IMG/VR virus record: IMGVR_UViG_3300021475_000018
Coordinates: 1 to 52,603 of that record
Direction: 5' to 3' (one strand)
Length of the DNA stretch: 52,603 nt
Origin: a virus
Of this stretch, positions 1,129 through 48,832 are shown one piece after another. The stretch's first letter is position 1. The number at the start of each line of letters is the position of its first letter. A program made the position numbers and the translations under genes. A model generated the notes under the pieces. It made no database searches and was not told the origin of the DNA. It worked only from the letters and a program-made list of their open reading frames with translations.

Positions 1129-1153
1129 CAACGTTTAAACGGTGCCCTACAAA
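1125..1153 (+). promoter_or_regulatory. sigma70-type promoter for the SprT-like gene
   Basis: TTGACA (1125-1130), a 17-bp spacer, then TACAAA (1148-1153). The spacer contains the palindrome GTTTAAAC. The -35 box overlaps the stop codon of the preceding gene. The match to the host housekeeping consensus is good. Confidence 0.7.
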
Positions 1154-1184: not shown

Positions 1185-1796
1185 ATGCCCAACAATTTCC
1201 AAACCCGCGAAGAATGGCTTAACTTCGTCATGGACGAAAGCCGCCCCAAGTTCAAAGAGCTGGGCGCCCCTATCCCGGCCAAGATACGCCTGAGCGTTGG
1301 TTTCACGTCGAACGGCTACCGCGGCAAGGCTATCGGCGAGTGCTGGGACAGCAAGGCATCGGGCGACAAGACCTTTGAAATCTTCGTCAAGCCCGATCAA
1401 GACGAAGCCGTACGCGTTGCCGGCATCTTGGTTCACGAGTGCGTGCACGCCGCGGTCGGCATCGACCACGGTCACAAGCGGCCGTTCAAGCGCGTTGCTG
1501 AAGCTCTGGGCCTTGAAGGCAAGATGACAGCGACCACCGAAGGCGCGCTGTTCAAGGAGTGGATTGGGCCGATCTTGAAGAAGGCCGGGCCGCTACCGCA
1601 CAAATCGTTGCGCGCTTACCGCACCAAGAAGAAGCAGGGCACGCGGTTGCTGAAGTGCGAGTGCATAAATTGCGGCTACGTCGTCCGTACGACTGCGAAG
1701 TGGCTGGACACTGCTGGGGCGCCGTTCTGCGGCACCAAGACACACGGCCGGATGATTTGCGAAGAAATCGAAGATGGTGAAGGAGAGGACGAATGA
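1185..1796 (+). CDS. SprT-like zinc metalloprotease with zinc-ribbon tail
   Basis: 203 aa. A HECVH motif (HExxH, residues 84-88) is followed by a further HGHK-type His, as in the SprT/Spartan family, whose members are usually zinc proteases acting on DNA-bound proteins. A C-terminal ribbon has Cys at about 158, 160, 163, 182 and 192, typical of SprT-like phage proteins. The ATG at 1185 follows the hairpin leader. Expressed from its own early promoter and coupled by ATGA to the next gene. The role in infection is inferred: processing of DNA-protein crosslinks or a host target. Confidence 0.8.
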   Translation: MPNNFQTREEWLNFVMDESRPKFKELGAPIPAKIRLSVGFTSNGYRGKAIGECWDSKASGDKTFEIFVKPDQDEAVRVAGILVHECVHAAVGIDHGHKRPFKRVAEALGLEGKMTATTEGALFKEWIGPILKKAGPLPHKSLRAYRTKKKQGTRLLKCECINCGYVVRTTAKWLDTAGAPFCGTKTHGRMICEEIEDGEGEDE

Positions 1797-6342: not shown

Positions 6343-6512
6343 TGGCACGACCAAAAGGGGCCAAGACAGCGCGAACCGAAGCGGAGCGCGCGGCGGTGCA
6401 GGAACGCGAGCGCAAGCGGCAACGCAGATACCAAAAGAGGCGTTACGCACGTAGGAAATTGGAGCGCAATAATGGCACGCAACGAACAGCACATGCATTT
6501 GCCGCTAATTGA
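6342..6512 (+). CDS. small basic protein, 56 aa
   Basis: A GTG start shares one base with the stop of the giant gene (TAGTG). Nearly half the residues are Arg, Lys, Glu or Gln in a long charged helix (ERERKRQRR, then KRRYARRK). Overlaps the next gene by 41 bases. Likely DNA- or capsid-binding, but unassigned. The overlap with both neighbours makes the start choice fairly firm. Confidence 0.55.
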   Translation: MARPKGAKTARTEAERAAVQERERKRQRRYQKRRYARRKLERNNGTQRTAHAFAAN

Positions 6513-6759
6513 TCGGCTAGCGGAGCAGTTGAAAGACAGCGGCACGCCGAGCCACACAGCGCGAGACATGGCGTTATCAATTTTACGTGACCGCGGACAC
6601 GTACACACCAACTCCGAACAGCTCACGGCCGAAGGTGCGCGGCGCGATCAGATGGGAGCCGCCGGCAGGGCGATTGACCGCGCTTCGAAGGCGAGCGGCA
6701 AGCCAGCGGAGCATTACGAATATGACACGAAGATCAATCGCGCCGTACTTAAGAGGTAG
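6472..6759 (+). CDS. hypothetical protein, 95 aa
   Basis: A GGAG Shine-Dalgarno lies before the ATG at 6472. Mostly helical and charged, with no membrane segment or signal peptide. The C-terminus is basic. It sits between virion genes in the same unit as the giant protein. No family recognised. Confidence 0.65.
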   Translation: MARNEQHMHLPLIDRLAEQLKDSGTPSHTARDMALSILRDRGHVHTNSEQLTAEGARRDQMGAAGRAIDRASKASGKPAEHYEYDTKINRAVLKR

Positions 6760-6770
6760 AACGTTTAAAC

Positions 6771-7091
6771 GTGTCGTTATTTCCGTGGCTCAATCAACCA
6801 CCGCCAACGCTCAAAGAGTTGACGCCACGGGAGCGCATGCTCGAACGGCTCAAATTCGGAGTACCGCTGGAGCTTGTGGCCCGTGCGGCCGGACTTCGTC
6901 CGGAAACTTTGAAGGAAGACCCGGAAGTTGACAAGGCGATGGCCGAAGGCGAGATTTTGTTGTTCGAACGCGCGCGAGACAGCAGCGTGACGGGTATCGT
7001 ACGGGCCGCTATGCGTCGGGAAGCGGAGAGCTGGCTGCCCAAGGCGGAACCCAGTTCGGCGGGTTCGCTGGAGGATTTGCTGCGGGACTAG
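6771..7091 (+). CDS. HTH-containing protein, possible small terminase
   Basis: 106 aa, GTG start just after a GTTTAAAC palindrome. The N-terminus carries the recurrent FPW motif (residues 4-6). Residues about 20-60 look like a helix-turn-helix (FGVPLELVARAAG, then LRPETL), followed by a helical region and an acidic C-terminal tail ending LEDLL. Small size, HTH and acidic tail suit a terminase small subunit, but the large subunit is 13 kb away and other DNA-binding roles are possible. Followed by a clear terminator. Confidence 0.55.
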   Translation: MSLFPWLNQPPPTLKELTPRERMLERLKFGVPLELVARAAGLRPETLKEDPEVDKAMAEGEILLFERARDSSVTGIVRAAMRREAESWLPKAEPSSAGSLEDLLRD

Positions 7092-9675: not shown

Positions 9676-10275
9676 GTGACGTATACGCCGTCAACCGATC
9701 TTCTCGCGCTGTTGCGGAATACGGCGAACGGCGAACGCGTAACCAGTGTCCCCGGGCTCGATTGGGTTGTTGCTGCGCTTGCGCGCGCCGGTTTGATTAC
9801 TTTGGTTGTGAGCCAAACTGCGCCGACTGTTAATCAAGCAATTACGGCGTGGTTTAAACCAAATATTCCCTCATGGACCGCCGAAGGTGTTTTGTTTTTG
9901 TGGAACGGCACAGCATACGCGCCAGCCACGCCCGCATTGTGGAACCAAGTCATAAGTTCCAGCGGCTCGGCGACGCTGAACTATGTTACGATAAATGCAC
10001 TCGGAACCGGTGCATACGCTGCACAGCCAGCCGATGACGTGATTTTGATTAAGTCAGGTGTAGGCGCACCGTTCACGGTAAACGTTGACTGGAGTGCGCG
10101 CACAAAGAAGCTAACCGTTGTTGACAGCGGATTGGGTGCTTTGGCGAACAACATCACCATTGTACCTAAAGCGGGCCAGACGCAAATGGGCACGTTGAAT
10201 TATCAGTACCCCATCGACAGCAACGGCGGAAGTATCACACTCACGCCACTACCGGACGGTTCGGGAGCCTACTAG
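9676..10275 (+). CDS. fibre-module protein, paralog A, 199 aa
   Basis: GTG start. The first about 95 residues (PSTDLLALLRN, PGLDWVVAALARAGLITL, TAWFKPNIPSWTAEGVLFLWNGTAYAPATPALW) are shared with the proteins at 14647 and 15801, while the C-terminal half is unique and beta-rich. A common N-terminal docking domain with variable distal parts is the usual design of phage fibres. The stop overlaps the next GTG (TAGTG). Confidence 0.7.
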   Translation: MTYTPSTDLLALLRNTANGERVTSVPGLDWVVAALARAGLITLVVSQTAPTVNQAITAWFKPNIPSWTAEGVLFLWNGTAYAPATPALWNQVISSSGSATLNYVTINALGTGAYAAQPADDVILIKSGVGAPFTVNVDWSARTKKLTVVDSGLGALANNITIVPKAGQTQMGTLNYQYPIDSNGGSITLTPLPDGSGAY

Positions 10276-13595: not shown

Positions 13596-14225
13596 GTGGG
13601 CGGTTTCGACAACGGGTCAATTCAAGGCGGCGTCTTTTTTCAGGCCAAGCAATTCGGCTCGGTATTGCGCGGCGCCGGCCCGCCCGTGCCCCAATCCGGC
13701 GTTGTCGGCGACGTCTATATCGATACGCAGTCATGGTTTTTGTACGCCAAGCGGAGCGCAGATAATACGGACCCTTGGGGGCACTATTTGTTTCAAGTGC
13801 CCGTGACGTACCGTACGGCGCTGAAGTGGTTTAGCGCATCCGCGCCGGATAGCAGCATAGGCGTGCCCGGGGACTACTGCTTACTTTGGAGCGGCTGGTC
13901 TAACTACGGCATGCAGCCTTCGATCTACGGACCGAAGCAAGCCGCGGGATGGCCCGAAAACGGCAATGGCGGCACTGTTCCGATCGCAGCCGCGGGCGCC
14001 GGAACTGTGTTGCCAGTCGGTTTGCTGGACGAAGGGGCGCCGTTGACGTACAGCACGTCAACGCAGTTGATCGCAGTTGGTTTGGCGGATGAATTTATCC
14101 TCGCTGTTCCGGTTACTGCGGCTGCCGGCGACCCAGTAACGCAGCAAGGATTGCAGTCCGGACCGGCTGCGGTCGCCGTCGTGCTCAATCCGCTGTACAC
14201 CGCCCAGGACGGTCATGGTGTTTAA
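13596..14225 (+). CDS. fibre-module protein, family B copy 1, 209 aa
   Basis: GTG start. The first about 125 residues match the next gene closely in pattern (GFDNGS/TIQGGVFFQ.KQFGS, DPWGHYLFQVP, GDYCLLW, Y.PKQAAGWP). The C-terminal 80 residues form a separate Ala/Val/Thr-rich beta domain. Tandem duplication with divergence is typical of fibre or host-range loci. The stop TAA lies within a GTTTAAAC palindrome. Confidence 0.7.
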   Translation: MGGFDNGSIQGGVFFQAKQFGSVLRGAGPPVPQSGVVGDVYIDTQSWFLYAKRSADNTDPWGHYLFQVPVTYRTALKWFSASAPDSSIGVPGDYCLLWSGWSNYGMQPSIYGPKQAAGWPENGNGGTVPIAAAGAGTVLPVGLLDEGAPLTYSTSTQLIAVGLADEFILAVPVTAAAGDPVTQQGLQSGPAAVAVVLNPLYTAQDGHGV

Positions 14226-14228
14226 ACG

Positions 14229-14657
14229 ATGTCCGGCTTTGACAACGGGACACTTCAAGGCGGTGTCTTCTTCCAATCGAAACAATTTGGTTCGATTATT
14301 CGCGGTTTAGGTCCGCCCGGGCCGGCTGCCGGCGTACAAGGTGATCTGTACATCGATGTCTTGTTGTGGTTCCTGTACGCCAAGCGCGCAATTGACGACA
14401 CAGACCCGTGGGGTCACTACCTGTTTCAAGTGCCCGCGACGTACCAAGCGCAGCTCAAGTGGTTCGGCAATTCCATACCGACGAATGATGTCGGCATCAA
14501 CGGCGATTACTGTTTGATCTGGGGCGGCTATCCGAACTACGGTCTGCAACCTTCAATCCTCGGTCCGAAAGCCGCGGGTGCATGGCCGGGCTCGCCCAAC
14601 GCGGTCGCTGTGACGTTGAACCCGCTGTACACGGCGGAGGACACGCATGGTTTATAA
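14229..14657 (+). CDS. fibre-module protein, family B copy 2, 142 aa
   Basis: Shorter paralog of the preceding gene, lacking its extra C-terminal domain but ending with the same LNPLYTAEDTHG-like tail. Probably a fibre adaptor or small structural module. Overlaps the next start at 14647 by 11 bases. The two copies could bind different fibres to the same virion site. Confidence 0.7.
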   Translation: MSGFDNGTLQGGVFFQSKQFGSIIRGLGPPGPAAGVQGDLYIDVLLWFLYAKRAIDDTDPWGHYLFQVPATYQAQLKWFGNSIPTNDVGINGDYCLIWGGYPNYGLQPSILGPKAAGAWPGSPNAVAVTLNPLYTAEDTHGL

Positions 14658-15801
14658 CCCAGCAACAGACTTTCTCGCACTTTGGCGCAACATCGCTGGC
14701 GTCGTCTCCAAGGTAGAAATGCCGGGGCTCGATTACGTTGTCGCCGCGCTCGCGCGTGCCGGCGTGATCACGCTGTCTGTTTCAGCGACCGCGCCAGTCG
14801 TCAGTCAGTCGACGACGGCATGGCTGCAAACGGCTGTCCCAAGTAATTCGGCCGAAGGCGTATTGTTTCTGTGGAACGCGGTCACAAGCGCGTACGTACC
14901 CGCTACGGCCGCGTTATTTCTCGATCTTTTGGAGGCATCGGCCGGGCAAAGTGGCGTCTCATGGTGGACTTCAGTCGGTGGGCCGCCACTTAATACAGTC
15001 GGCAATAACGGTGATTTTGCTGTCCGTACAGACGAACCAAACGGCATTTACGGCCCGAAAGCCTTGGGCGTGTGGCCCGCCTCTCCGCTGCCCGGCACCG
15101 CTGACGTACTCACGAGCAGTGCGCTTGACAACACGTTCGGCGCAACGGAGGGCGAGCTAGTCTACCGCGGCCCGCTTTTATGGCAAGGGCTCGGCATCGG
15201 CGCCGCCGGGACAGTCTTGACGCCTTCCGGCGGTGTGCCTGCATGGGAAGCACTGTCCGCGCTGCTTGACGCCGTGTTCGGCAACGTGCAGGGCGATATT
15301 TTGTACCGGGACACTGCCGCATGGAAGACGCTTGCCCCGGGTGTGGCGGGCACGGTTTTGACTACCGGGGGTGCGGGCGCCGACCCGTCGTGGCTGTCGT
15401 CGCCGTCCACCTTTCCATCCGGCACAGTCATGCTGTTTCAACAGACCGCGGCCCCCGTGGGCTGGACAAAGCAAACGGCTTTCAATGACTACGGCTTGCG
15501 CGTGGTGTCTGGCGCGGTCGGTTCGACGCCGGGCACCGCTTTTAGCACCGTGTTTGCGCAAACTTCAGTTGGCAATACGGCGCTGAATGCCTCGCAGATA
15601 CCCGCGCATACGCATCCAGTTAGCGCGTTGCAATTCAACACGACGGATAACGGCACCATCGCTGCGATCGGGTACTATTCCAATTCTGGCGGTGCCGGCG
15701 GCGTTGTTACGGATAACAATACAGGCGGAGGCGGTGCGCATAATCACTCGGTCAGCTTGGCTCTGTCGTACGTCGATATGATACTTGCGAGCAAGAACTA
15801 A
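14647..15801 (+). CDS. tail fibre with collar-type C-terminal domain, 384 aa
   Basis: N-terminal about 95 residues are paralogous to those of the 9676 and 15801 genes. The middle repeats the NGDFAV/GPKALGVWP type module seen in family B. The C-terminus (PSGTVMLFQQTAAPVGWTK, ASQIPAHTHP, GGGGAHNHSVSLALSYVDMILASKN) is a phage tail-collar domain with its His-rich AHTH and AHNH metal-binding motifs. So this is a true tail fibre, likely receptor-contacting at the distal end. TAATG overlap with the next gene. Confidence 0.8.
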   Translation: MVYNPATDFLALWRNIAGVVSKVEMPGLDYVVAALARAGVITLSVSATAPVVSQSTTAWLQTAVPSNSAEGVLFLWNAVTSAYVPATAALFLDLLEASAGQSGVSWWTSVGGPPLNTVGNNGDFAVRTDEPNGIYGPKALGVWPASPLPGTADVLTSSALDNTFGATEGELVYRGPLLWQGLGIGAAGTVLTPSGGVPAWEALSALLDAVFGNVQGDILYRDTAAWKTLAPGVAGTVLTTGGAGADPSWLSSPSTFPSGTVMLFQQTAAPVGWTKQTAFNDYGLRVVSGAVGSTPGTAFSTVFAQTSVGNTALNASQIPAHTHPVSALQFNTTDNGTIAAIGYYSNSGGAGGVVTDNNTGGGGAHNHSVSLALSYVDMILASKN

Positions 15802-16409
15802 TGTACAACCCGTCAACCGATTTTCTTTCGTTGCTGCGAAATACAGGCAGTGGCAAAAGCGTGCTCAACATGCCGGGGTTGGATTGGACCGTTGCAGCGC
15901 TCGCTCGCGCGGGTCTTATCAACTTATCGGTTGGGCAAACCGCGCCAATGGTCAATCAGCCGACTACGGCATGGTTTAAACCATCGCAACCGTCATGGGT
16001 TGCAGAAGGCGTGCTTTACTTGTGGAACGCCAGCGCGGCTCAGTACCAAGTTGCTACGCCGTCACTGTGGCAGGCTGCGCTTTCCGGTACGAACAGTTAC
16101 GCATTCCAATCGGCGAAGTCTGCATCGAACCTCGTTAATGCGGGAACGACATTGTTGGCAATCCAACGTGCAGGGCCGTCTGCGACGACGCTTATACTCC
16201 CGCCGCTTAATCAGCGCATTGCAGGCCAGCTTTTGAAGGTCGTCGATTGGTCAACAGCGGTTGTCAATCATGCCGTAACCATCACGACTACGGATGGTTC
16301 GTCAATCATGCAAGAAACTTCTTGGGGCTTGCTATCGACGGCTGTACAACTTGCCGGTATTGGTTTATACCCGTCTCCTGATCTCAATGGGTGGGTCATT
16401 GCACCATGA
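15801..16409 (+). CDS. fibre-module protein, paralog C, 202 aa
   Basis: The N-terminal about 95 residues resemble the 9676 and 14647 products (PSTDFLSLLRN, TAWFKPSQPSWVAEGVLYLWN); at DNA level both this gene and 9676 keep a GTTTAAAC in the shared W-F-K-P codons. The unique C-terminal domain is beta-rich. Likely another exchangeable fibre unit. ATGA overlap with the following exported fibre gene. Confidence 0.7.
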   Translation: MYNPSTDFLSLLRNTGSGKSVLNMPGLDWTVAALARAGLINLSVGQTAPMVNQPTTAWFKPSQPSWVAEGVLYLWNASAAQYQVATPSLWQAALSGTNSYAFQSAKSASNLVNAGTTLLAIQRAGPSATTLILPPLNQRIAGQLLKVVDWSTAVVNHAVTITTTDGSSIMQETSWGLLSTAVQLAGIGLYPSPDLNGWVIAP

Positions 16410-20275: not shown

Positions 20276-21856
20276 GTGACCGTCTACCCCTGGGAGCAGC
20301 CTCCGTCTTTTTATCCGTGGCAGCAACCGCAACCTACGGAAGCGGAGCGCAAAGCGGCGATGCGGGCCAAGCTCCGCGATTTTGATTTCTATCGAGAGCG
20401 GTTCCTGCGCATCCGTCCGCGTGCCGGCGGCGAGCGCATCCCGTTCATTTTGAACAACGCCCAGCGCGTGTTGCATGCGCGTTTGGAAGAAGAGAAGAAG
20501 CGGTTCGGCATGATACGCGCGCTCGTGCCCAAGGCGCGGCGTATGGGCGTAAGCACGTATATTGGTGGACGCAACTTCCATCAAATCGGAACCATGTTCG
20601 GTCGGCGTGCGCAAGTGGTGGCGCACCGCGGCGACAGTGCAGCTAACCTGCATCGTGAAATCAAGGAGTTTGCCAACAGCTTGCCGGGCGCCGTACAGCC
20701 GTCGATTGGTGCCACCAACTCTTATGAAGTGATCTTTGACAAGCTCAAATCGCTTTACAAGGTGGCGTCGGCCGAAGGCGGCGATATTGGCCGTTCCGAC
20801 GATTTCCATAACCTGCATTTGTCGGAAGCCGCTTTCTTTGATAACACGGAAGACCTTTCGTCAGGTTTGCTGCAAACCGTACAAGACTTGCCCGGTACGG
20901 AGATTATAGAAGAGAGCACCGGCAACGGCCAGTCCGGCATGTTTTATAATCAATGCGAGGAAGCGGCGCGGCAGGGCAACAAAGGTCCGTGGCGCATCCA
21001 CTTCTTGCCGTGGCCCGTCATGCCAGAATATCGCCAAACTGTGCCGATCGGCTGGAAAGCACCGCAGGACTTTGAAGAGTACGCGCGCATGCATGGCGTG
21101 GACCGTGAACAACTGCATTGGTTCTGGACCAAGAACTATACGATAGCCGTCATGAACGGCGGGCAACCGGAGAAAATTCACCGGCTCACGCGTCAGGAGT
21201 ATCCGGCCATCTATAGCGAATGTTTCATGGCTGACAGTACGCTTGATTTCTTCCCGGCTTCCACCGTATCCGCGGCAATGGTGCGCAAACCGAACCCGTC
21301 CGCTGGGGCGCTGAAGCTGCTTTGCGTGGACCCAGCCGGTGACGGGCAGGACAAGCCTTTTGTCTGCGATCGGCAAGGCTCCGCGATCGGCGCTAAGGTT
21401 TGGGGCGAGCTGACAAGTCGGGACTACAACGTGCAAGCTGACTGGCTTGTGGCTACGTTTAAACGCTTCGATATGGATGCCATCCTTATTGACGTGACTG
21501 GCACTGGCAAAGGCCTGCTTGATGCCGTGCGGCTCCGCATGCGCGCGTACGGTCCCGAAAAAGTGGTTGCGGTCAACTTTGCCTGGGGTGCTTTGAACGA
21601 TACGTTGTACGGCAACCGACGTGCGGAGCTTCATGATAAATTTCAACGTTTCTTGCAAAGTGACGTGTACATACCGAATGACAAGATGTTGCAGGATGAA
21701 TGCGCCGCTTATAAATGGGGTGTGGGTGGTTGCCGCCGTGACGAAAAAGCGCGGCTGTTCATGACCCCAAAAGAGAAAATTAAAAAGGAGCTGAAGCCTA
21801 CGCGCTCGCCCGACCGTTTGGACGCCTGCGTTGTTTCGATGGCAATGGAGCTTTGA
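20276..21856 (+). CDS. large terminase subunit (TerL)
   Basis: 526 aa from GTG. ATPase part: Arg-rich Walker A-like PKARRMGVST (residues 85-94) and Walker B LHLSEAAFF with E184. Nuclease part: Asp-352 (VDPAGDG), Asp-406 (LIDVTGTG) and Asp-513/516 (SPDRLDA). It packages DNA into procapsids and cuts it. The N-terminus carries two copies of the recurrent motif (YPWE 4-7, YPWQ 13-16). A four-codon mini-frame (ATG at 20264) ends on top of the GTG, which may couple initiation. Confidence 0.9.
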   Translation: MTVYPWEQPPSFYPWQQPQPTEAERKAAMRAKLRDFDFYRERFLRIRPRAGGERIPFILNNAQRVLHARLEEEKKRFGMIRALVPKARRMGVSTYIGGRNFHQIGTMFGRRAQVVAHRGDSAANLHREIKEFANSLPGAVQPSIGATNSYEVIFDKLKSLYKVASAEGGDIGRSDDFHNLHLSEAAFFDNTEDLSSGLLQTVQDLPGTEIIEESTGNGQSGMFYNQCEEAARQGNKGPWRIHFLPWPVMPEYRQTVPIGWKAPQDFEEYARMHGVDREQLHWFWTKNYTIAVMNGGQPEKIHRLTRQEYPAIYSECFMADSTLDFFPASTVSAAMVRKPNPSAGALKLLCVDPAGDGQDKPFVCDRQGSAIGAKVWGELTSRDYNVQADWLVATFKRFDMDAILIDVTGTGKGLLDAVRLRMRAYGPEKVVAVNFAWGALNDTLYGNRRAELHDKFQRFLQSDVYIPNDKMLQDECAAYKWGVGGCRRDEKARLFMTPKEKIKKELKPTRSPDRLDACVVSMAMEL

Positions 21857-28500: not shown

Positions 28501-28598
28501 GGGGTTGACGCCCGCTTTGGAGTAGCGTACGTAAGCAGTGTGCGGTGGCATCTTGCTATCGCTGCCCTCCTTGGGCGTTTCCTCCCTATTGACTTGGC

Positions 28599-28629
28599 GG
28601 CCCCGCTGTACGACGCGGGGCCGTTCTTT
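28599..28629 (+). terminator. rho-independent terminator after the capsid gene
   Basis: GGCCCCGC pairs with GCGGGGCC around the 8-nt loop TGTACGAC, followed by GTTCTTTC. Lies between the converging capsid and ParB-like genes. Confidence 0.75.
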
Positions 28630-28631
28630 CA

Positions 28632-29531
28632 TCAGGCGGCCTTCGCCATCGGTGGCAGCCAATCGGGCGGCGCCGGCAGTTCCTCCCCAGGAGCCAAACG
28701 CGCGTTAGCCGGCCGGCGAAAGTCAATCACGGACAGCAACGCCCGCCCCGCCTCTTCTGCCTTCGGCCTGGGGCCTACCGAGCGCGCGGCCATGTCGATA
28801 CGCGGCCAACCCAGGTCAAGCAACCGGCGGGCGTGGTCACGAAACGCAGGGTAGTTGTGCACGAGCCACACAAAGCCAAGCGTCGCGTGTTCCGTTACCA
28901 GCGCATTCGGCGGGGCCAGCGTGGCGATCATTTCCAACGCGGTCACAAGCTCGCCCGGCGGTACAGGGGTTGCTCGTTTGGCGTAGCTTGCGCTGCCGTG
29001 ACCGTACAGCGATTTCAACGCGCCGACGCAAGCAAGTTTCGGCACGGTAAATTCGTCGCGTTGGTTGTTGGCGTCCACAACGGCCAAGCCGGCGTTCTGC
29101 ACGAGCCGGTTGAGCTGCACGGCGCTTTCGTCACCAGCCGCAACTTCCGCCATGAACAACATGGTTTGCGGCACCTTCCGCATTTTGGTGTTGCGCGAAA
29201 GAAAAATCTCGATTTCGCGCTTGCGGTCATGCACGTTGTAAATATCGCACGGAACGAACAGACGCGCGGACGCTTTCGCGCCTTCCCAGCGGTGCCGCCC
29301 GTCCACGACAAACAGCGCACCGTTTGCGCGCCGTACGACCATGAGCCGGCCGAACAGTGTCAAGTCGAAAGTCTTACCGATTTCCTTTACCAGCCGTGGG
29401 TTGCGCGGCTTCATTGCTTGATACGTCGTATCGACATTCAACAGTCCAATCGGAACCTCGGTTGGTTCCGGTTTTTCTTCGATGATAACGACGGGTTTCT
29501 GTTCCCAAGGGAACATCTTCGCGGTACTCAT
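28632..29531 (-). CDS. ParB/Srx-like domain protein, 299 aa
   Basis: The ATG at 29531 follows AGGAGCCGTACAA. Residues about 25-100 are a ParB N-terminal-type fold (GLLNVDTTYQAMKP, RLMVVRRANGALFVVDGRHRWEGAK), whose DGRHRW motif is the nucleotide-binding or nuclease core of this superfamily. The rest is helical with an HNHH-free DNA-binding-like region. The N-terminus has the FPWE motif (residues 7-10). Single-gene leftward unit with its own promoter. Could act in DNA partition, regulation or host nuclease; unproven. Confidence 0.7.
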   Translation of the reverse strand: MSTAKMFPWEQKPVVIIEEKPEPTEVPIGLLNVDTTYQAMKPRNPRLVKEIGKTFDLTLFGRLMVVRRANGALFVVDGRHRWEGAKASARLFVPCDIYNVHDRKREIEIFLSRNTKMRKVPQTMLFMAEVAAGDESAVQLNRLVQNAGLAVVDANNQRDEFTVPKLACVGALKSLYGHGSASYAKRATPVPPGELVTALEMIATLAPPNALVTEHATLGFVWLVHNYPAFRDHARRLLDLGWPRIDMAARSVGPRPKAEEAGRALLSVIDFRRPANARLAPGEELPAPPDWLPPMAKAA

Positions 29532-29570
29532 TTGTACGGCTCCTTTGCTAGCTGCGCCCCTACGTGAGTA

Positions 29571-29599
29571 CAAATACGGATGACGTGTGAATATGTCAA
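29571..29599 (-). promoter_or_regulatory. promoter for the ParB-like gene
   Basis: Minus-strand TTGACA (29599-29594), 17-bp spacer, TATTTG (29576-29571). Confidence 0.7.
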
Positions 29600-29680
29600 T
29601 ACCAAGCTTGACTTGCGGCGGCAAATCACCGCATGTGCGCACAACTGCACACTTCACAGTCAGGGCGGAGGGGGCGCTAC

Positions 29681-29926
29681 ATGCAGGGGTACTGGTGGGC
29701 ACGGACACCCGAAAATGCGCTATTTGTAGTCATGGTGGTGGGTGAAAAGGGCTATGTTCCCGGGGTGGAAGGTGCTATAGATTTAGGCGACTTTTTCATG
29801 ATCGAGCCCGTCCCATGGCCGCGACCCGCAACCCAAAGCCAAAATTCGGTTCTGCCGTCACCTGGGGCGCGTGCTCTCGTTGCAACGCCCGGGTCAAATA
29901 TTCTACCCTTTGTCGCGAGAGGTTGA
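29681..29926 (+). CDS. hypothetical protein, 81 aa
   Basis: GGAGGGGG lies before the ATG. The first about 50 residues (QGYWWARTPENALFVVMVVGEKGYVPGVEGAIDLGDF) are compact and beta-like. The last 30 lie in the same stretch as the start of the next gene in another frame and look less protein-like. It leads the rightward tail-adaptor unit. Unknown function. Confidence 0.55.
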   Translation: MQGYWWARTPENALFVVMVVGEKGYVPGVEGAIDLGDFFMIEPVPWPRPATQSQNSVLPSPGARALVATPGSNILPFVARG

Positions 29927-30423
29927 CTGGCCTTCTGGTTTGCGGGCCCGCCAGTGGCCGGCCGGTCCGCTACTGCCTTGATCCGTGGCCCCCGGTGTAC
30001 GACTTCCAAGCCTTTCCAGATAAGTCAATCGAGCCGCCGGCCGAACCGCTGCCGCTGCGCTACAACCTGGATGCTATCTGGGGCAACGGTCCGGTGTCCG
30101 GCAATACCAGCGACTTCGCTAACGCGCCCGCCGCGGCGCCGGACGACGCTACCCGGTTGAACAACTTGCTTCGCATGGTTCCGTATTACGCGGCTGCCGG
30201 CAAGACGGCTGCGTTCACGCCCCGAACGCAGGGTATCGACGTTGAAGTCGCAAAGGTGCTTTTAATCAATCCAGCGAATTACGACGGTACCTTTCTTCCG
30301 TCTAGTTCTGTACGGACGGTGACGCCGCCAATCGAAAGTCCGTCCAGCGTCACGCAGACGGATAAAGACGTGCCTTCCGATCAACTTTGGACGCCCCCAT
30401 GGGCGGTAAACCAAGGCGTTTAA
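29815..30423 (+). CDS. head-tail region protein with Cys motif, 202 aa
   Basis: ATG at 29815. The N-terminus has CSRCNARVKYSTLC and later C residues (LVCGPASG, VRYCLDPW), probably a zinc site. The C-terminal two thirds is Pro/Asp-rich with a helical segment (ATRLNNLLRMVPYYAAAGKTAAF). It sits before the gp4- and gp10-like genes. Its stop codon is the TAA of a GTTTAAAC palindrome. No named family; probably a head-completion or adaptor accessory. Confidence 0.65.
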   Translation: MAATRNPKPKFGSAVTWGACSRCNARVKYSTLCRERLTGLLVCGPASGRPVRYCLDPWPPVYDFQAFPDKSIEPPAEPLPLRYNLDAIWGNGPVSGNTSDFANAPAAAPDDATRLNNLLRMVPYYAAAGKTAAFTPRTQGIDVEVAKVLLINPANYDGTFLPSSSVRTVTPPIESPSSVTQTDKDVPSDQLWTPPWAVNQGV

Positions 30424-30425
30424 AC

Positions 30426-32870: not shown

Positions 32871-33308
32871 ATGGTGAACACACCGCAAAAATTCCCGCCG
32901 CCGCCGTTCTTGGTCGGTACGGACCAAAACACGCAGATGCTTAACCGCTGGTTACTGGAAGTGCAGAATGTGCTTGCCGCTGCCGGTGGCGTAGACCCGA
33001 GCAACATTGCAGGCTTTACAGCACTCCAAACTCAAGTCGCAACCAATACGACCGACATTGCGACGTTGGAGGCTGGACAAGGCGGCCAAGCGGGAGCTAT
33101 CGCCACGCTTCAGTTTGAAGTGACTGCGTTGAACGCCGACATAGCCACTATCAACGGGCAGCTTACGACGCTAGAAAGCAATGCTGTTGTACGGAACGGT
33201 ACTGCTGCGCCAGCTAACACGCTCGGTAATAACGGAGATTGGTTCGGCGATACGACGAATAAACATATTTATATCAAAGTTGCAGGTGCGTACGTAATGA
33301 TAGTTTAA
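32871..33308 (+). CDS. tail needle/fibre-like protein, 145 aa
   Basis: The middle holds a heptad-like coiled coil (TALQTQVATNTTDIATLEAG, ATLQFEVTALNADIATINGQLTTLES), as in trimeric tail needles. The C-terminus is a small fibre-type domain (NGTAAPANTLGNNGDWFGDTTNKHIYIKV) also echoed in the 14647 fibre. N-terminus is Pro-rich. The stop TAA is shared, through a GTTTAAAC palindrome, with the converging VRR-NUC gene. Confidence 0.7.
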   Translation: MVNTPQKFPPPPFLVGTDQNTQMLNRWLLEVQNVLAAAGGVDPSNIAGFTALQTQVATNTTDIATLEAGQGGQAGAIATLQFEVTALNADIATINGQLTTLESNAVVRNGTAAPANTLGNNGDWFGDTTNKHIYIKVAGAYVMIV

Positions 33309-33721
33309 ACGAACAGCATTAAAGCGTTAACTGCGCCCTGAAACTCCGCAAGCGTCCGTACGATAAGGTACACGTTATCGGCGGCTTCCCAGGCACGTTG
33401 AAATTGCGCTTGGCCTTTTCGCTGTTTGCCGTCCGGACGTTTCAGCTCGATTGCAACAGAGCGATCCGGCAGGAACGCTAGATAGTCGGCCACGCCATCG
33501 CGCACGCCCAGCCGCTTGAAATGCATAATGGCGCCGATGCCGCCCATGCGTTCGTTAGGGACGTGGAAAATCAGGAGCCGGCGCCAGATGCCCGACTTTT
33601 CGAGCCACTGCTGGGCATTCATGTGCAGGCATTCCTCGCCGAAGTCTTCCGGATTGCCGGGCGTCTTTGGCGGGGTTTTGCGGGCCTTCTTAGCGCGCTT
33701 TCTCGGGGGGTGCGAGGCCAA
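33305..33721 (-). CDS. VRR-NUC domain nuclease
   Basis: 138 aa from a TTG at 33721 (an ATG at 33622 with an AGGA site is the likely shorter start, 105 aa). Contains FHVPNE, GVRDGVADYLAFLPDRSVAIELKRPDGKQRKGQAQFQ, the core of VRR-NUC (PD-(D/E)xK superfamily) with catalytic Asp and Glu-x-Lys. Such phage enzymes act in recombination or host DNA degradation. Read with the RHH gene just upstream, with which it overlaps. Confidence 0.8.
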   Translation of the reverse strand: MASHPPRKRAKKARKTPPKTPGNPEDFGEECLHMNAQQWLEKSGIWRRLLIFHVPNERMGGIGAIMHFKRLGVRDGVADYLAFLPDRSVAIELKRPDGKQRKGQAQFQRAWEAADNVYLIVRTLAEFQGAVNALMLFV

Positions 33722-37053: not shown

Positions 37054-39080
37054 TCATTTGCGCATCCTATCCGCTTCGTACCCCTCGCAATCCAGCGGCA
37101 GCCCGGCAGTCCACGGCCGCGGCCGGCGCATAATTTCGCGCATCTGCTCTGAGCGCTGCTTGGCAATGTGAGCCGGCGCCAGCGAGAGTATGCTATCATA
37201 GACATCAAGGACCAACACAACATCCGGCAGCTCGTTCTCTATGTCAGCTTCCGCCGCGGTCACCAAGTCACGCGTACAGCTTGACAGAAGATTTCGAGCA
37301 GCGAACCGCCGAAAGCTTTCTGTCGCATCATGGCACCAAACTTCGCCCGGAAAAACTGCATTTCTCCGGTTGGCGAAATGTGTGCAGAGTAGTGCGGTAC
37401 CGCGCGACCGGACGGCAACAACATCCACACCGTACCATGACTGTCTTTTTGGAACGCGATTTTATTGTTGACTGGGAAGATACGGCCGTGCTGTTCATAG
37501 ATCGCAAATTTGAAGGCATCGGCCAAGTCGTACCAAAGCCGTACGAGTAGCGGGTTGGCTTGGCGATAACCGTTGATATCGATCATGGCTTTTTGGTCGG
37601 TTATCTCGTGACGCTTCAAACCGTTTTCCGCGGCCGTACGGATAAGGAACGCGAGATATGTACGCCAACCGAGCTGATAGTTGCCGCCAAGCGTGACGCT
37701 CTTGAATGTCTGCCGTTCTTTTGGATGCGTGGATTTGGTAGCGGTTTCTGGCAGGTTCAGACACTTCCGAGCGTTGTACATATACAAATCGCTGCCCGGC
37801 GTCGCAATGATATTTAAACGTTCCGTGTCGCCAGCGAGCCAAAGCGCGAAACGCAATTCCGCCTGGGAAGCATCGTTATCGCATACCATCCAGCCTGTAG
37901 GTGCCACGATGCAACCGCGAAGGCAGTCTGTCAGGGCGCTATTGCCTAGCGACGTATGACCCTGCTTCAGCCGGTCAATAAGCTGGTCTATCGTGGCGCG
38001 GCCTTCCTTGCCGTCGTACTTGCCGGACGGGCGCGCAATGTTGAACATATTCGCGCCTTCGGATGTGCCGCGCCCCGATCGCGCGCCGAAGTACCGTGTA
38101 GCGTCTTTGTAAAAACCGTTGACGTGCCGGTCTAGCAACGCTTGCGCTTTAAGCGGCGCGGAGCCACCCTCCGCCTGCAACAGCTCCAGAACAATCCGTA
38201 CGTCTGGGTGCAGGTTTTCGTCAGTAAGTTTTTCCGCGATAATGTGCTTCTGCGTATTCTCCAGTCCGGCAGCGCGGTTACCGCTATTGGCCCAATCGAG
38301 TATCCGCTGCCGCTGCGAAAGCTTGGTCACCGCGTTGTTGGTGATTTCCATAAGCTTCGCGGTGCTCTCCTGCTCGATTTCTTGCCGACGCATCGCAATC
38401 GCGGTTGCCAGATTAATATCGATCGGGAGCCCGATTTCGTTTTTACGCCATGTGCGCTCAAAGATCAGACGTTCGGCCGGTGACAGCGGAGGCAAGCGTG
38501 CGTCAACATCCATGAGGCATTCAACGTCGCGCAAGTTGTACGCGAGCAGCTTGACGAACGTTTCGATTTTTTCGTGGAACGTGCCGTCTTTCTGCGGCTT
38601 GCACGTCAGCGTCACGAGCGCGCGGCCTTGCGGGTCTTTGCCCCGGATACCAAGCGCCATACATAATTCATCAAGGCCGCCCGGGAACGCGATAGCTTGG
38701 GCGCGGCCCATTGTGCAATCAATCTTGCTCAAATCGATTTGTACGAACGGATTTTGCCGCTTAATCACGTTCACGTCGAAATTGGCGTGATGCGCAACGA
38801 AGCGCCGGCATTGCCGGATATCTTCGTAAAAGTCCGCCATCGTATGGGAGCCGATAGACGGATGTAATGTGCATGCAGTTTTGTACACACCGCGGAACCA
38901 CCAACACGCCGTGGTTATCTGGGTGGATGGGCATGCTGCATAGCGTCGCGCGCCCGCCGTCTTCAGGTTCGTACGGCTGCGTGTTTCTACATCGGCGAAT
39001 AAGTCGTCAAGCTGCGGCACGTAGCACGCTTTCAAAGTTGAGAGAGCGGGTAAAGCCCTTCGTCTGCCAATTCGATGCAC
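37054..39080 (-). CDS. DNA polymerase A, frameshifted near the C-terminus
   Basis: Family A polymerase with exonuclease. Exo motif at LFADVETRS, then DinB-free palm: motif A DNDASQAELRFALWLAGD, motif B ERQTFKSVTLGGNYQLG. The first frame stops at 37260 soon after FGGSLLEIFCQAV, exactly where such enzymes continue AxARDLL. The continuation (TRDLVTAAEAD, then motif C-like LDVYDSI) is in the -1 frame and runs to 37054. One base seems to be missing near 37274-37280. Start is GTG at 39080 or 39020; neither has a clear ribosome site. Motif C has Tyr-Asp-Ser in place of His-Asp-Glu. Confidence 0.85.
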
Positions 39081-39142
39081 CGCGCCGGGAAACCGGAAAA
39101 ATCGACGCGTTGACCATTCCCGCTACGTCCGGTTGACACTCT

Positions 39143-39172
39143 CAAAAAAGTGCCCGGGACCGAAACCCCGGG
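39143..39172 (-). terminator. rho-independent terminator after the ssDNA-binding gene
   Basis: Minus strand: CCCGGG, 8-nt loop, CCCGGG, then CACTTTTTTG. Ends the 42215-39182 leftward unit; the polymerase downstream then needs its own promoter or readthrough. Confidence 0.75.
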
Positions 39173-40375: not shown

Positions 40376-41365
40376 TCAGTATCTCGCTGTTAGTTCGCCG
40401 GGTGGTTTGTGCGCACCGACCGCTGCATATTGCTTGCCGGCGAGCCCTAGCTTTTCCGCCTGGGCCGGCGTCACGGGCTTGACGCCTTTGTATCCAAATT
40501 GCTGATGTAAGTACGTTGCGGCTTGTGTGGCGTCATTCCATACGCGCCATGAACGCTTCGGCTCCAGCGACGCGCCATCGGCTTGCCGGCCCATCTTCAA
40601 ATGCGTAGTCAGCGCATCCTTGTACACCGGCTCCACGTCGCCGAGCGCGCGGATAAGGCGCAACAGCCGTACAAGGTCTTCCGTCGTCAGGTCTTCAATG
40701 CGCCGTGTCATCGCGCCCATGACGAAACCGGCGTCGGTGGACATCGCGGGGCATTGCTGAAATGCCTTGCACCAACGGCACCACGGTCCAGGGCGCGGCG
40801 GGCTGCGATCGGCGATGGCGCGCAACATGCGGTCGCGGTGCGCTTCAACCTGGGAGCGATGCGCTACCCACTGTTTAAACGGTTTTTCGTCCAGTCCGTT
40901 CGGTTGGAAGATCACGAAGCGCCACCATTCGGCATCCGTCATCGGCAGCGCCATAGCGCCGTACGAGAGCATTTGCGTGTTGTGGTGCGCATCAACGTCC
41001 CACTTGCCGTTTTTCAAATCGAGCCAAGTGACGATGCGCGGCGCTTCGTTCCAAAGATCGGTCGTTCCGCCGCATTCTTCGGTAAGGCGGAGTTTCAATT
41101 CCGTATGGATGGTGCCGGGTTCTAGCTGCCGTACAAAATCAAGCCCTAGGGCGATGGCGTCGGCTGCGGTGTCGCCTTCTTCCGGCATTTCCATTTCGGA
41201 AATCGCCACTTCGAACAGCGTGTGTACGCGCGTGCCTTCGTCGGCGGCAAGCTTCGTCTTCAGCGGCTTCGGCGGTTCCGGCACGCTGTGGCGAGCGCTG
41301 TACGTGCACTCTAGCCATGTTGACGAACTGGACGGCGCGTAAATGTCGTGGTGTTGATCGGACAT
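40376..41365 (-). CDS. RecB/Cas4-type nuclease (DUF2800-like)
   Basis: 329 aa. The start APSSSSTWLECTYSARHS, the DEGTRVHTLFEVAISE helix, TDLWNEAPRIVTWLDLKNGK (PD-(D/E)xK core, IVTWLDLK) and a Cys cluster (CRWCKAFQQCP) fit phage DUF2800/Cas4-like exonucleases, which often carry an Fe-S or zinc site. Acts on DNA ends in recombination or host takeover. Starts in a TAATG overlap with the small 41365 gene. Confidence 0.8.
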   Translation of the reverse strand: MSDQHHDIYAPSSSSTWLECTYSARHSVPEPPKPLKTKLAADEGTRVHTLFEVAISEMEMPEEGDTAADAIALGLDFVRQLEPGTIHTELKLRLTEECGGTTDLWNEAPRIVTWLDLKNGKWDVDAHHNTQMLSYGAMALPMTDAEWWRFVIFQPNGLDEKPFKQWVAHRSQVEAHRDRMLRAIADRSPPRPGPWCRWCKAFQQCPAMSTDAGFVMGAMTRRIEDLTTEDLVRLLRLIRALGDVEPVYKDALTTHLKMGRQADGASLEPKRSWRVWNDATQAATYLHQQFGYKGVKPVTPAQAEKLGLAGKQYAAVGAHKPPGELTARY

Positions 41366-46601: not shown

Positions 46602-46781
46602 TTACCCTTTTTCAATGATGCGTCGCGCCGCCATCATCACTGTGGCTTCTTCCGTTATGGAAGGGCGGCGCTGTGTTGCTGCATACGTGCTCCAGTACAG
46701 CAACACGAATTTGTAGCGTTCGGCGCATGTCGAGCATTCGCACCGATGATCGTTGCCGTCTGGCGTGACTAATTTTGCCAT
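46602..46781 (-). CDS. small Cys-rich protein, 59 aa
   Basis: ATG at 46781 behind a variant leader (copy 6) whose 12-mer also encodes the end of the primase-helicase. CECSTC at residues 14-19 suggests a metal site. Basic C-terminus. Overlaps the primase-helicase stop by 13 bases. Confidence 0.6.
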   Translation of the reverse strand: MAKLVTPDGNDHRCECSTCAERYKFVLLYWSTYAATQRRPSITEEATVMMAARRIIEKG

Positions 46782-48832
46782 GGGTAGCTCTCCAGCTTGG
46801 TTGTCGGTGTTTGAACGGTCCAGTTAACCGTAAGAGGCTGTTGTACGTTTCCGGCGGGCGAATAAACCGCATAAAAAGGGCATCCGCGCATCGTACGGAA
46901 GTGTCCCGAATTTAGCAAGCTCTGCATGCCCTCTTTTTCAAATAATTTTAGGGCAGCATCCTTGCTGATGACGAAGGCCGGCACGGAACCGTGTACGGAT
47001 GCACCCAGTTCGGCGGCGACACTATCAAAGGGAACCATGTTGCCGGCGCGAAGCGCGTCCATTCCGCCGCTAGTGACGCCGGGCAGCATCGCGCCGAGCC
47101 GTATCATGGCACTCTGTTCGCGTTGCTGCGGTGTTGTAATGATTTCGCGTTTAAACACATTCACCGTTGTTGCACGCCCCTTGCTGTCGTTGCCGTAGTG
47201 TTCGGAAATAATTCTCCCGGTGTAGCTCTTTGCCTTTGGCGCGCCGCGCGCTTTACCGCAGTCGATTGACACCGTGTCTTGCCGGCCAGCGGTGACGCGA
47301 TACATGAAACCGCTATTGCCGGCCTTGGCGCCGTTGCCTTTCTGCCAAGCATCCTCATTGCCGAGCGGCAAATGGTCCGTAACAACCATCGCTGCGCCCG
47401 TACGAAATGCGACATTTTTCAAAATGAACATCGCCTTTAAAACGCTTTCGGTATCGTTGTCGGCAAAGCAAAGCCCCGACGACGCCCAGGTATCCAGCAC
47501 GAGCAAGTCAACGCGCATGCCCATGGCGGCCATCGCAGCAACTTGGCCTAGGCAATCTTGTTCGAAGGAGCCGGAATTGACGCGCGGTATTAGATGGAAG
47601 CGTGAAGCTAGCTCGTTGCCGTTCGGTTCCTGCCGGATAAGATGCCTTACGCGTCGTTCTGTGCCGTAATCGTCTTCAGCGGCAACCCATAAGACATGAC
47701 CGTCCGTACGTTCCACTTCCGCGTCAAGCCATGCTCGGCAAGTGAGATAAGACACGCAAAGGTCGCTAACGACAGATGATTTTCCGGCTCCGCTGTGTCC
47801 GGTAAAGAAGTGAACTTCGCTACACAAAACGCGTTGATATAGTAGCCATGGTAACTCATTTGTGCTGTCCTCCAGTTTCAGCTCAAAGCCCGTACGAGCC
47901 TGCAACGTCGGCGCCGTTTGTCCGTCATGCAAACCTTGAAGAAACGTACGGCGCGACATGATAGCTTGCATTATCAGATTGCCGCGCAACACCGGCAACT
48001 GATCATGGCGCATGATTTCTTCGCCCAGGACGCGCCCGCCGTGACCTTCGGATAACGAGTGACCCGCGCTGGTTATCGCAGTTTCGATTTCCTCTCGTGT
48101 GCACATGCCGTTCTGCTCGGCGAACTTCAGCACCCCGACAAGCGAAAAAATCGTGGACCCGCGGCCCTCCGTACGGCCCATCAAGTCTTGCTTGAGCAGT
48201 CCTAAGTATCGTTTAGTGGCGTCGCGGCCGGCTTGCCATTCATCTTGCGTTCTAGGAATAGCTTCTGAAAGTTCGTCAGCTCCAGCGGTTTCGTGCTCGG
48301 CTCCGAACCGCAGGGACGTACCAGCCTGACGCGGCACTTCTGCAAGAATATGCTGAAGCTGTGCTGTTGTAATTTGCGGCCACTCTGCATCCCAATTCTC
48401 CCATTCGTACGGCTGTCCGGTGTCTTTGTGCGGGCCGAAGGCGACGAATTGTCCGCCCATCAATTGGAGCTTATCGCCGTCCGGAAATGTGAAAGTGCGA
48501 CCCTGTACGGGTGCGTCACGCAGAAAGAACGGTATCAGGAAACGCGGCCGTCTTCCCCATCGGATAGGAGTGTTCGGGCCGAGTATAGTACGAAACGCCT
48601 GCAAGAGACGCCCAGACATTTCGGGGTTTGATACGTCACAGTCAAAAGCGGTAAGGCCGTTGTCTCCGCAGCGGAGGCCCACGCTGCCGGCGCCTGGGTG
48701 GGGGATTGGTGATGTCCAGACATTCCAGCCGTCTCCTATGGGAGCTTTAGAACCCCTTGCGATAGCTAGCGGAAACAGTCCGCGCTGTACGGCTTGCGTC
48801 CAGAAGTCCTGAATGGTAAGAGGTAAAGGCAA
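46769..48832 (-). CDS. primase-polymerase / DnaB-type helicase, 687 aa
   Basis: TTG start (TGATTG, GGGGGC site). N-terminal about 210 residues resemble a primase-polymerase (TAFDCDVSNPEM metal-binding Asps at 64/66, RWGRRPRFLIPF). A RecA-like ATPase follows: Walker A GHSGAGKSS (345-353), LLVLDTWASSG Walker B and TDHLP. So it can prime and unwind at the fork. Ends ESYPWQN, one copy of the YPWQ motif. A bidirectional terminator is just upstream, so expression is controlled there. Confidence 0.85.
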   Translation of the reverse strand: MPLPLTIQDFWTQAVQRGLFPLAIARGSKAPIGDGWNVWTSPIPHPGAGSVGLRCGDNGLTAFDCDVSNPEMSGRLLQAFRTILGPNTPIRWGRRPRFLIPFFLRDAPVQGRTFTFPDGDKLQLMGGQFVAFGPHKDTGQPYEWENWDAEWPQITTAQLQHILAEVPRQAGTSLRFGAEHETAGADELSEAIPRTQDEWQAGRDATKRYLGLLKQDLMGRTEGRGSTIFSLVGVLKFAEQNGMCTREEIETAITSAGHSLSEGHGGRVLGEEIMRHDQLPVLRGNLIMQAIMSRRTFLQGLHDGQTAPTLQARTGFELKLEDSTNELPWLLYQRVLCSEVHFFTGHSGAGKSSVVSDLCVSYLTCRAWLDAEVERTDGHVLWVAAEDDYGTERRVRHLIRQEPNGNELASRFHLIPRVNSGSFEQDCLGQVAAMAAMGMRVDLLVLDTWASSGLCFADNDTESVLKAMFILKNVAFRTGAAMVVTDHLPLGNEDAWQKGNGAKAGNSGFMYRVTAGRQDTVSIDCGKARGAPKAKSYTGRIISEHYGNDSKGRATTVNVFKREIITTPQQREQSAMIRLGAMLPGVTSGGMDALRAGNMVPFDSVAAELGASVHGSVPAFVISKDAALKLFEKEGMQSLLNSGHFRTMRGCPFYAVYSPAGNVQQPLTVNWTVQTPTTKLESYPWQN
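46786..46797 (-). promoter_or_regulatory. variant leader hairpin (copy 6, compensatory change)
   Basis: AGCTGGAGAGCT: same GGAG tetraloop, but the outer C-G pair is A-T. The hairpin lies within the primase-helicase tail and serves the ATG at 46781. Confidence 0.65.

Follow-up and report, generated by a model that had tools for sequence, protein, structure and literature searches.

Cluster A mycobacteriophages carry stoperators, the sites of the L5 repressor, which are asymmetric 13-bp sequences located mainly in short intergenic regions and oriented with transcription. The ArdC-type antirestriction proteins of plasmids bind single-stranded DNA through their N-terminal domain, and we know of no iterated site for ArdC. 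In cyanobacteria, HIP1 and the alternate HIPs are octameric palindromes iterated throughout the host genome which, in the portion of the source drawn on here, go together with DNA methyltransferases (PMC4390886).

The stretch of DNA analysed here, hereafter the window, comprises one IMG/VR virus record in full (52,603 bases, 58% GC), which encodes tailed-phage genes (terminase, head closure, DNA polymerase A, helicase and primase/polymerase) and contains exactly ten copies of the octameric palindrome GTTTAAAC, a density of approximately one per 5 kb. The computations revealed a strong enrichment of the octamer, an all-or-none association with a single gene, conservation at the level of codons, and covariation between the octamer and a basic arm of the encoded protein. 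Judging from these sequence patterns, we consider it highly probable that a phage-encoded SprT-like protein recognises GTTTAAAC and that its arm and zinc ribbon would read the octamer.

Enrichment and placement of the octamer in the window

The preliminary description had given ten positions for GTTTAAAC and fewer than one expected copy, and both statements held: all ten coordinates were exact on recount, and the background-corrected expectation was approximately 0.3–1. Dinucleotide shuffles of the window gave an expectation of 0.98 copies and reached ten or more in none of 100 cases, and Markov models of orders 1, 2 and 3 expected 0.86, 0.30 and 0.30 copies, respectively. These counts rule out chance or base composition as the source of the excess. 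Among all 8-mers in the window GTTTAAAC had the highest z (17.8, order 2), and the HIP-type signature of an octameric palindrome far above its Markov expectation is found here (10 vs 0.30, rank 1 by z). The higher values from orders 5 and 6 (4.1 and 8.1 copies) arise because the 6- and 7-mers on which these models draw come largely from the ten sites themselves. When up to one mismatch was allowed, the window contained 19 matches in total compared to 18.7 in the shuffles, and the enrichment in the window is therefore restricted to the exact octamer. In the pooled site-rich genomes, the near-misses in excess were chiefly those that differ at the outer base (ATTTAAAC 3.1-fold, CTTTAAAC 1.9-fold), and GTGTAAAC was enriched 1.7-fold. 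Duplication of a longer repeat was ruled out as well, as similar flanks were seen only at 9852 and 15974; these two sites lie in paralogous-looking genes and are thus not fully independent. Some genomes, among them the window (P 0.009), had evenly spaced sites and others had them in clusters, and therefore no single role is apparent from their spacing.

The first site (1133..1140) is located, as previously described, in a promoter spacer, namely the 17-bp spacer between TTGACA (1125-1130) and TACAAA (1148-1153) of the SprT-like gene. GTTTAAAC follows the TTGAC of the -35 element of this gene likewise in G025, G027 and G032, that is, in four of four carrier lineages examined including the window. 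Three further sites supply stop codons in the manner first reported for them. The site at 14220..14227 provides the stop of the gene at 13596-14225 immediately ahead of an ATG at 14229, the one at 30418..30425 ends the gene at 29815-30423 and has the same position in four of four carriers, and the one at 33303..33310 gives TAA to two converging genes (32871-33308, plus strand, and 33305-33721, minus strand), also in G027. The site at 6763..6770 lies between the genes at 6472-6759 and 6771-7091, and the same junction is occupied in G025 and G032. The remaining five sites are intragenic. Those at 9852..9859 and 15974..15981 lie within the genes at 9676-10275 and 15801-16409, respectively, and the one at 21457..21464 within the terminase large subunit gene (20276-21856), with the same codons in G032. 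The site at 40873..40880 falls in the exonuclease gene (40376-41365, minus strand), where the codons CCG TTT AAA CAR are kept in four of four carriers and in none of 13 non-carriers, even though some non-carriers encode the same P-F-K-Q with other codons. Similarly, the site at 47149..47156 in the primase/polymerase gene (46769-48832, minus strand) has the same codons in all four carriers and in 0 of 13 non-carriers.

The general claim that the palindrome sits at gene boundaries thus stands in part: for four of the ten sites (6763, 14220, 30418 and 33303) a gene end is no more than 12 bp away, and a fifth is in a promoter, but half are inside genes. Since only 5% of positions qualify as near a gene end, the four sites are more than expected (binomial P 0.001), with genes defined as homology-selected ORFs in a list compiled in this analysis. 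Stop codons are probably an easy place to accommodate GTT-TAA-AC. A general promoter rule was ruled out, as TTGAC is hardly enriched beside the octamer overall and adjoins only 10 of 426 site-orientations, compared to 4.5 expected. Selection at the DNA level would maintain about one exact copy per 5 kb, and could be satisfied through codon choice inside genes and as a stop codon at gene ends.

Several other features were observed in the window and its relatives. The word GCTGGAGAGC is over-represented (in the window, for example, at 1170-1179, and in G007, G018, G022 and G026), mostly ending 3-6 bases ahead of ATG or GTG; in the window it precedes a start in six of six cases, as an unusually long conserved ribosome-binding leader. 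A second inverted-repeat family resembling TCCYNNRGGA (CCCTGGGA, CCTAGGGA, CCTAAGGA, CTTAAGGA) varies among the window, G010, G017, G019, G022, G023, G026 and G028. GTAC-centred words (CCGTAC, TCCGTACG, ATTTGTAC) are over-represented in the window and relatives, and G007 and G030 contain the words GTATGACA/GTCATACA. The relative G035 (L117-L118), which is without GTTTAAAC, has many GTTGACAATCAAC-like words, with 19 copies of GTTGACAA vs 1.1 expected, and these resemble a stoperator that incorporates the -35 hexamer. Two Rfam families were matched above their gathering scores, the Rhizobiales sRNA Atu_At1 at 39039-39148 on the minus strand (88.3 bits) and suhB/mmgR at 28557-28638 on the plus strand (58.3 bits), mmgR being found also in the relative G007; the two matches suggest a host of the Rhizobiales type and phage-borne sRNAs. 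A ParB-like gene (phrog_1033; 28632-29708) is present in some relatives, independently of octamer carriage.

Carriage among relatives and the SprT-like gene

Searches with the terminase and the helicase brought in another 39 records, which were for the most part close relatives. Six were rich in GTTTAAAC, with 7 copies in 33 kb (G001), 10 (G002), 4 in 10 kb (G011), 12 (G025), 15 in 34 kb (G027) and 16 (G032), whereas three of the remaining records had a single copy and thirty had none. Carriers hold 7-16 copies, and 19 non-carrier relatives together contained one copy in 856,555 bases, compared to 5.5 expected from an order-2 model. G002 shares approximately 90% nucleotide identity with the window over 44 kb aligned, and in this record the sites at 1133, 6763, 21457, 40873 and 47149 were retained and the one at 14220 altered, the other four not being alignable or readable.

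When the genes of the window were compared with three carriers and 15 other records, only one gene occurred in each of the three carriers while being absent from all 15 others. This gene is the SprT-like ORF 1062-1796, whose true start is probably the ATG at 1185, the longer ORF from 1062 being mechanical. Likewise, a profile search detected the SprT-like gene in the window, G001, G002, G025, G027 and G032 and in 0 of the 19 non-carriers, and gave no SprT-like match in the 10-kb fragment G011 with its four GTTTAAAC copies. The distant G037, with no copy of GTTTAAAC, gave a partial match only, from a different, arm-less SprT. The preliminary description would have been refuted by an unremarkable background-corrected count or by disappearance of the sites in relatives. 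The count is unusual, and among relatives the sites disappear only where this one gene is absent.

In the predicted protein (1185..1796, plus strand; 203 aa; phrog_6361, 4e-52), the proposed reader of GTTTAAAC, a SprT-like metalloprotease domain precedes a basic arm of the form K-K-Q-x-T-R and a zinc ribbon. The HExxH metalloprotease motif, here HECVH, is encoded at 1434..1448 (residues 84-88), the arm K-K-Q-G-T-R, which would be the base-reading element, at 1629..1646 (residues 149-154) and the ribbon CxC..C...C...C at 1656..1760 (residues 158-192), all on the plus strand. Across 48 sequences (alignment A3), H84, E85, H88 and H97 are invariant, so that HExxH and the third zinc ligand are present, and Q151, T153 and R154 are nearly invariant. 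The match of the window protein to PF10263 (E 0.025, 14.9 bits) lies under the curated cut-off of 25.6; the homologues L290 (38.6 bits) and L250 (25.7 bits) pass it and three others do not. An AlphaFold2 model of the protein had a pLDDT of 92.3, and its best match in a VIA structural comparison was human Spartan (6mdx; Z 8.1, rmsd 3.3, 99 residues), a borderline match in which the zinc ribbon was barely tested. Foldseek returned no match below E 0.001 for this model, and a fold search with a first AlphaFold2 model, built from 3 sequences (pLDDT 61.9), was empty. A sequence-profile search of solved structures yielded mostly Rubisco, by chance, with Spartan at E 0.27, and NCBIfam and PADLOC gave nothing useful for this protein.

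The protease domain is absent from the homologue in G025, where only the arm and the ribbon are left (59 residues), and this genome keeps its 12 sites. Similarly, HExxH has been lost in G080, G081 and G083, which keep 25, 31 and 15 sites, respectively. In 22 of 39 genomes, the genome's own octamer is found within 170 bp upstream of the SprT-like gene, compared to 3.3 expected, and when contigs chosen by the promoter pattern were left out the ratio was 18 of 31 vs 1.8. Because the promoter of its gene contains one of the copies, the protein may bind there and limit its own expression. The other copies would then dock the protein along the genome, either as a regulator with dispersed sites or for delivery of the protease to the phage's own DNA. 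We infer the autorepression, what the dispersed copies do, and the binding itself.

Recurrence, covariation and host genomes

The DNA-only pattern TTGACA-N1-4-GTTTAAAC was found at no fewer than 119 loci. Among the matches listed, a SprT-like gene was present in 13 of the 19 loci with at least three further sites, compared to 1 of 100 with fewer (Fisher 4.6e-12); the six other site-rich loci among these matches had no SprT-like gene in whole records of 7-17 kb. Nine of the densest among the matches listed contained 7-47 copies, with GTTTAAAC ranking first of 256 palindromes in each, and eight of the nine had a SprT-like gene. A protein search gave 156 confirmed places, 80 of which were kept, and of the 40 records tested for both octamers, 28 contained three or more GTTTAAAC plus GTTTACAC. 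A homologue is encoded by 163 named phages, of which 12 were tested. GTTTAAAC occurs 17 times in Dinoroseobacter R5C, 8 times in Alexa, 5 times in ECO1230-10 and 4 times each in Mano and Persinger, and GTTTACAC is the top 8-mer in Microbacterium phage Floof (16), Arthrobacter phage Reedo (27) and Microdon (43). Katzastrophic, Skylord and Epa5 had neither octamer, and FP1 had one GTTTACAC. Counts were small in W03 and W04 (4 each) and in W12 (5, with 0.97 expected).

An all-against-all comparison of 24 site-rich genomes, which form about ten groups (a group sharing more than 15 ORFs), showed the SprT-like gene to be the single gene common to nearly all 24, as its queries matched up to 22 others and those of the next gene 10. 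G075 stands outside this result, since the end of its contig with the SprT-like gene was not in the compared sequence. The octamer GTTTACAC, found in actinophages, has 8 bp and is asymmetric. In G073 it is one-sided (24 of 24), and TTG[AC][CG] occurs within 22 bp ahead of 15 of the 22 sites in the part examined, whereas site orientation in W06 is balanced (21/22). G073 (L403-L404) also contains near-identical short promoters in series on one strand (a TTGCGC-like hexamer, GTTTACAC, a -10 element and ATG), which precede genes starting with ATGACGAA.

The strict 8-bp palindrome, which we take to be the PmeI site, and its HIP-like density in some contigs, e.g. 47 copies in 58 kb, would suit iteration driven by a methyltransferase or a restriction-modification pair, as proposed for HIP1 in cyanobacteria. 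Such a pair is nevertheless very improbable here, as some octamers are non-palindromic (GTTTACAC) and no methyltransferase gene is common to the site-rich genomes. The N6/N4 DNA methyltransferase family PF01555 was present in 2 of 26 records and not in the window. As far as this family and the shared-gene comparison reach, a phage methyltransferase as the common factor was rejected, and the methylation raised as a check in the preliminary description is not supported.

In bacterial genomes, a scan turned up 64 loci, the majority of them small Sphingomonadales contigs. In these pooled loci (904,564 bases) GTTTAAAC occurred 129 times vs 1.7 expected, compared to 4 vs 3.1 for GTTTACAC, and in many of the loci one GTTTAAAC falls within the coding sequence of the SprT-like protein. 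In contrast, whole genomes, of which eight were searched (3.4-8.4 Mb), contained only 5-15 copies each, not above the reversed control. In several of these, most copies were on the SprT contig, for example five of seven on a 28-kb contig of a 3.4-Mb genome, contig identity being inferred from matching site spacing. Iteration throughout the host genome, which defines HIPs, was thus absent in eight of eight genomes searched. Phages often follow the composition of their hosts, and host sequence habits or a host protein could in principle explain the octamer. This explanation is scarcely credible, as carriers and non-carriers within one family differ in an all-or-none manner, and iteration driven by the host was rejected on the counts in these eight genomes. 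On the sphingomonad plasmids, the SprT-like gene lies beside parA and rep, with GTTTAAAC dispersed in the plasmid stretches read. The Sphingomonadales contigs L428-L491 also contain the iterated words ACTAAGCG and TACCCCAA, which are perhaps replication iterons.

In the aligned proteins, Q-x-T-R adjoins the ribbon whether the genome is one with GTTTAAAC or one with GTTTACAC, and the arm sequence leaves the preference between these two octamers unexplained. Where the arm differs, the octamer tends to differ as well. G044, with Q-x-T-S, has no GTTTAAAC and 46 copies of CTTTAAAG, and G052, the only other genome in which a Q-x-T-S protein was seen, has 11 CTTTAAAG in 15 kb, as predicted beforehand, compared to 0-2 in 39 other records; G044 and G052 are relatives, and the CTTTAAAG pair therefore represents one lineage. 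G045 (KADTNR) contains 7 copies of GTGTACAC vs 0.4 expected, and G065 (KAQKNR) 7 copies of GTGTCCAC vs 0.4. In both genomes the octamer is present in the promoter of the SprT-like gene as well; for G065 this promoter was viewed together with the word list. In the KQPTR clade (G061, G062, G069 and G070), ATTTAAAT tops the palindromes. The four octamer-less phages (W08-W11) have lost the Q-x-T-R arm. No convincing octamer was present in their sequences or in that of G040, and none was clear in G047, G060 and G064, which were counted for the known octamers only; the G090 contig is too short to judge. G049 is an exception, with the altered arm AQKGR and yet 8 GTTTAAAC. When the octamer labels were mapped onto a tree of 34 proteins, 6 changes were required, compared to 11.5 with shuffled labels; the labels therefore cluster by descent, with few independent switches. 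The covariation with the arm and the retention of sites in protease-less lineages are among the reasons for proposing that arm and ribbon read the octamer.

An alternative is that another phage regulator reads GTTTAAAC, with the SprT-like protease as its target or as an antirepressor (ImmA-like) and the promoter site as its operator. Metalloproteases acting on repressors are known, and the sites do occupy operator positions of the SprT-like gene. We nevertheless regard this as unlikely: the site-rich genomes share no second gene, the octamer tracks the arm of the SprT-like protein itself, and the protease-less G025 and the HExxH-less G080, G081 and G083 retain their sites.

Possible roles and comparison with known systems

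If the SprT-like protein is the reader, it may act as a repressor whose sites are scattered in the manner of stoperators, and in phages with an integrase, such as Floof, it could be the lysogeny repressor that is missing, a role that we put forward tentatively. It would fit the octamers in the proteins' own promoters (22 of 39 genomes) and the one-sided sites of G073 (24/24, with 15/22 after TTG[AC][CG]). In the part of the source drawn on here, Floof and Percival have an integrase and no identified repressor gene (PMC7302621). Half of the window sites are intragenic, however, the orientation is balanced in W06 (21/22), and the proximity to TTGAC is weak.

The octamers may instead bring the protease onto the DNA of the element itself, where it would clear bound or crosslinked proteins in a Spartan-like manner or counter silencing or restriction. 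This is possible but rather doubtful. The invariant catalytic residues (H84, E85, H88 and H97 in 48 sequences), the borderline match to Spartan 6mdx (Z 8.1, rmsd 3.3, 99 residues) and the spread of sites across whole genomes are consistent with it, but the sites stay where the protease has been lost (G025, G080, G081 and G083).

An aid to segregation or replication, with the protein as a centromere-binding type of partner beside parA and rep on plasmids, appears improbable. A homologue is encoded in 70 plasmid records, 41 of them typed as conjugative. In the four plasmids inspected, a ParA gene adjoins the homologue on pRSMS3 and pSCLO_5, an AAA ATPase gene does so on pSF4, and ParA lies 1.2 kb off on MGMAQ_p. 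These are, however, four of 70, and the window has no ParA among the families searched. A bolder reading, somewhat less likely than not, is that SprT-like proteins with a Q-x-T-R zinc ribbon form a widespread, undescribed class in mobile elements, with cognate octamers dispersed as marks over the genomes of phages and plasmids. These would serve both regulation, possibly by the unrecognised repressor of temperate phages such as Floof, and protease docking, and the specificity would shift through one or two residues of the arm.

If the SprT-like protein does read the octamer, a large set of phage proteins, whose annotation at present goes no further than SprT-like protease or transcription elongation protein SprT, would gain a function and a predictable DNA code. 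The octamers iterated in sphingomonad plasmids and in the phages that infect Proteobacteria and Actinobacteria would be accounted for. The switch in protein-DNA specificity would be directly testable, and the missing repressor of some integrase-bearing actinophages may be supplied. No sequence-specific, genome-iterated cognate site for SprT-like proteins was found in the literature searched, nor any paper that connects either GTTTAAAC or GTTTACAC with the genomes of phages or with SprT-like proteins, most subscription journals being outside the search.

Compared to described systems, the proteins studied here resemble ArdC in being mobile-element proteins that would join DNA binding with a SprT-like metalloprotease domain. 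They resemble SprT-like/Spartan (SPRTN) DNA-dependent metalloproteases in the HExxH domain, the predicted, borderline Spartan-like fold and the C-terminal zinc-binding part, but some members here are without the protease. The position of the gene next to parA and rep on sphingomonad plasmids recalls ParB/parS, from which the system differs in protein fold and in its dispersed sites, which occur also in phages. HIPs, in the portion of their description drawn on here, are likewise palindromic octamers that recur at high frequency, and other lineages have alternates (PMC4390886), whereas the present octamers are confined to mobile elements and no common methyltransferase was found. The arrangement is also like that of the stoperators of cluster A phages, with many dispersed copies of one short site at promoters and elsewhere, an apparently phage-encoded reader and a site that differs between relatives. 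Unlike the asymmetric 13-bp stoperators, the site in the window is a strict 8-bp palindrome, and GTTTACAC, though asymmetric, has 8 bp. Moreover, in contrast to the mainly intergenic stoperators, which are oriented with transcription, five of the ten window sites are intragenic, and an orientation bias is seen only in some GTTTACAC genomes. Overall, an 8-mer that is mostly palindromic and often intragenic is here paired with the gene for a SprT-like zinc-ribbon protein. Since stoperators and HIPs, which resemble the present octamers in form, differ from them in defining features that were tested, and no report of the pairing was found in the literature searched, we propose that the reading of an octamer by this protein would be a categorically new system. 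The same pairing of protein and address in many unrelated phages and some plasmids points to a DNA-targeting system distinct from those described.
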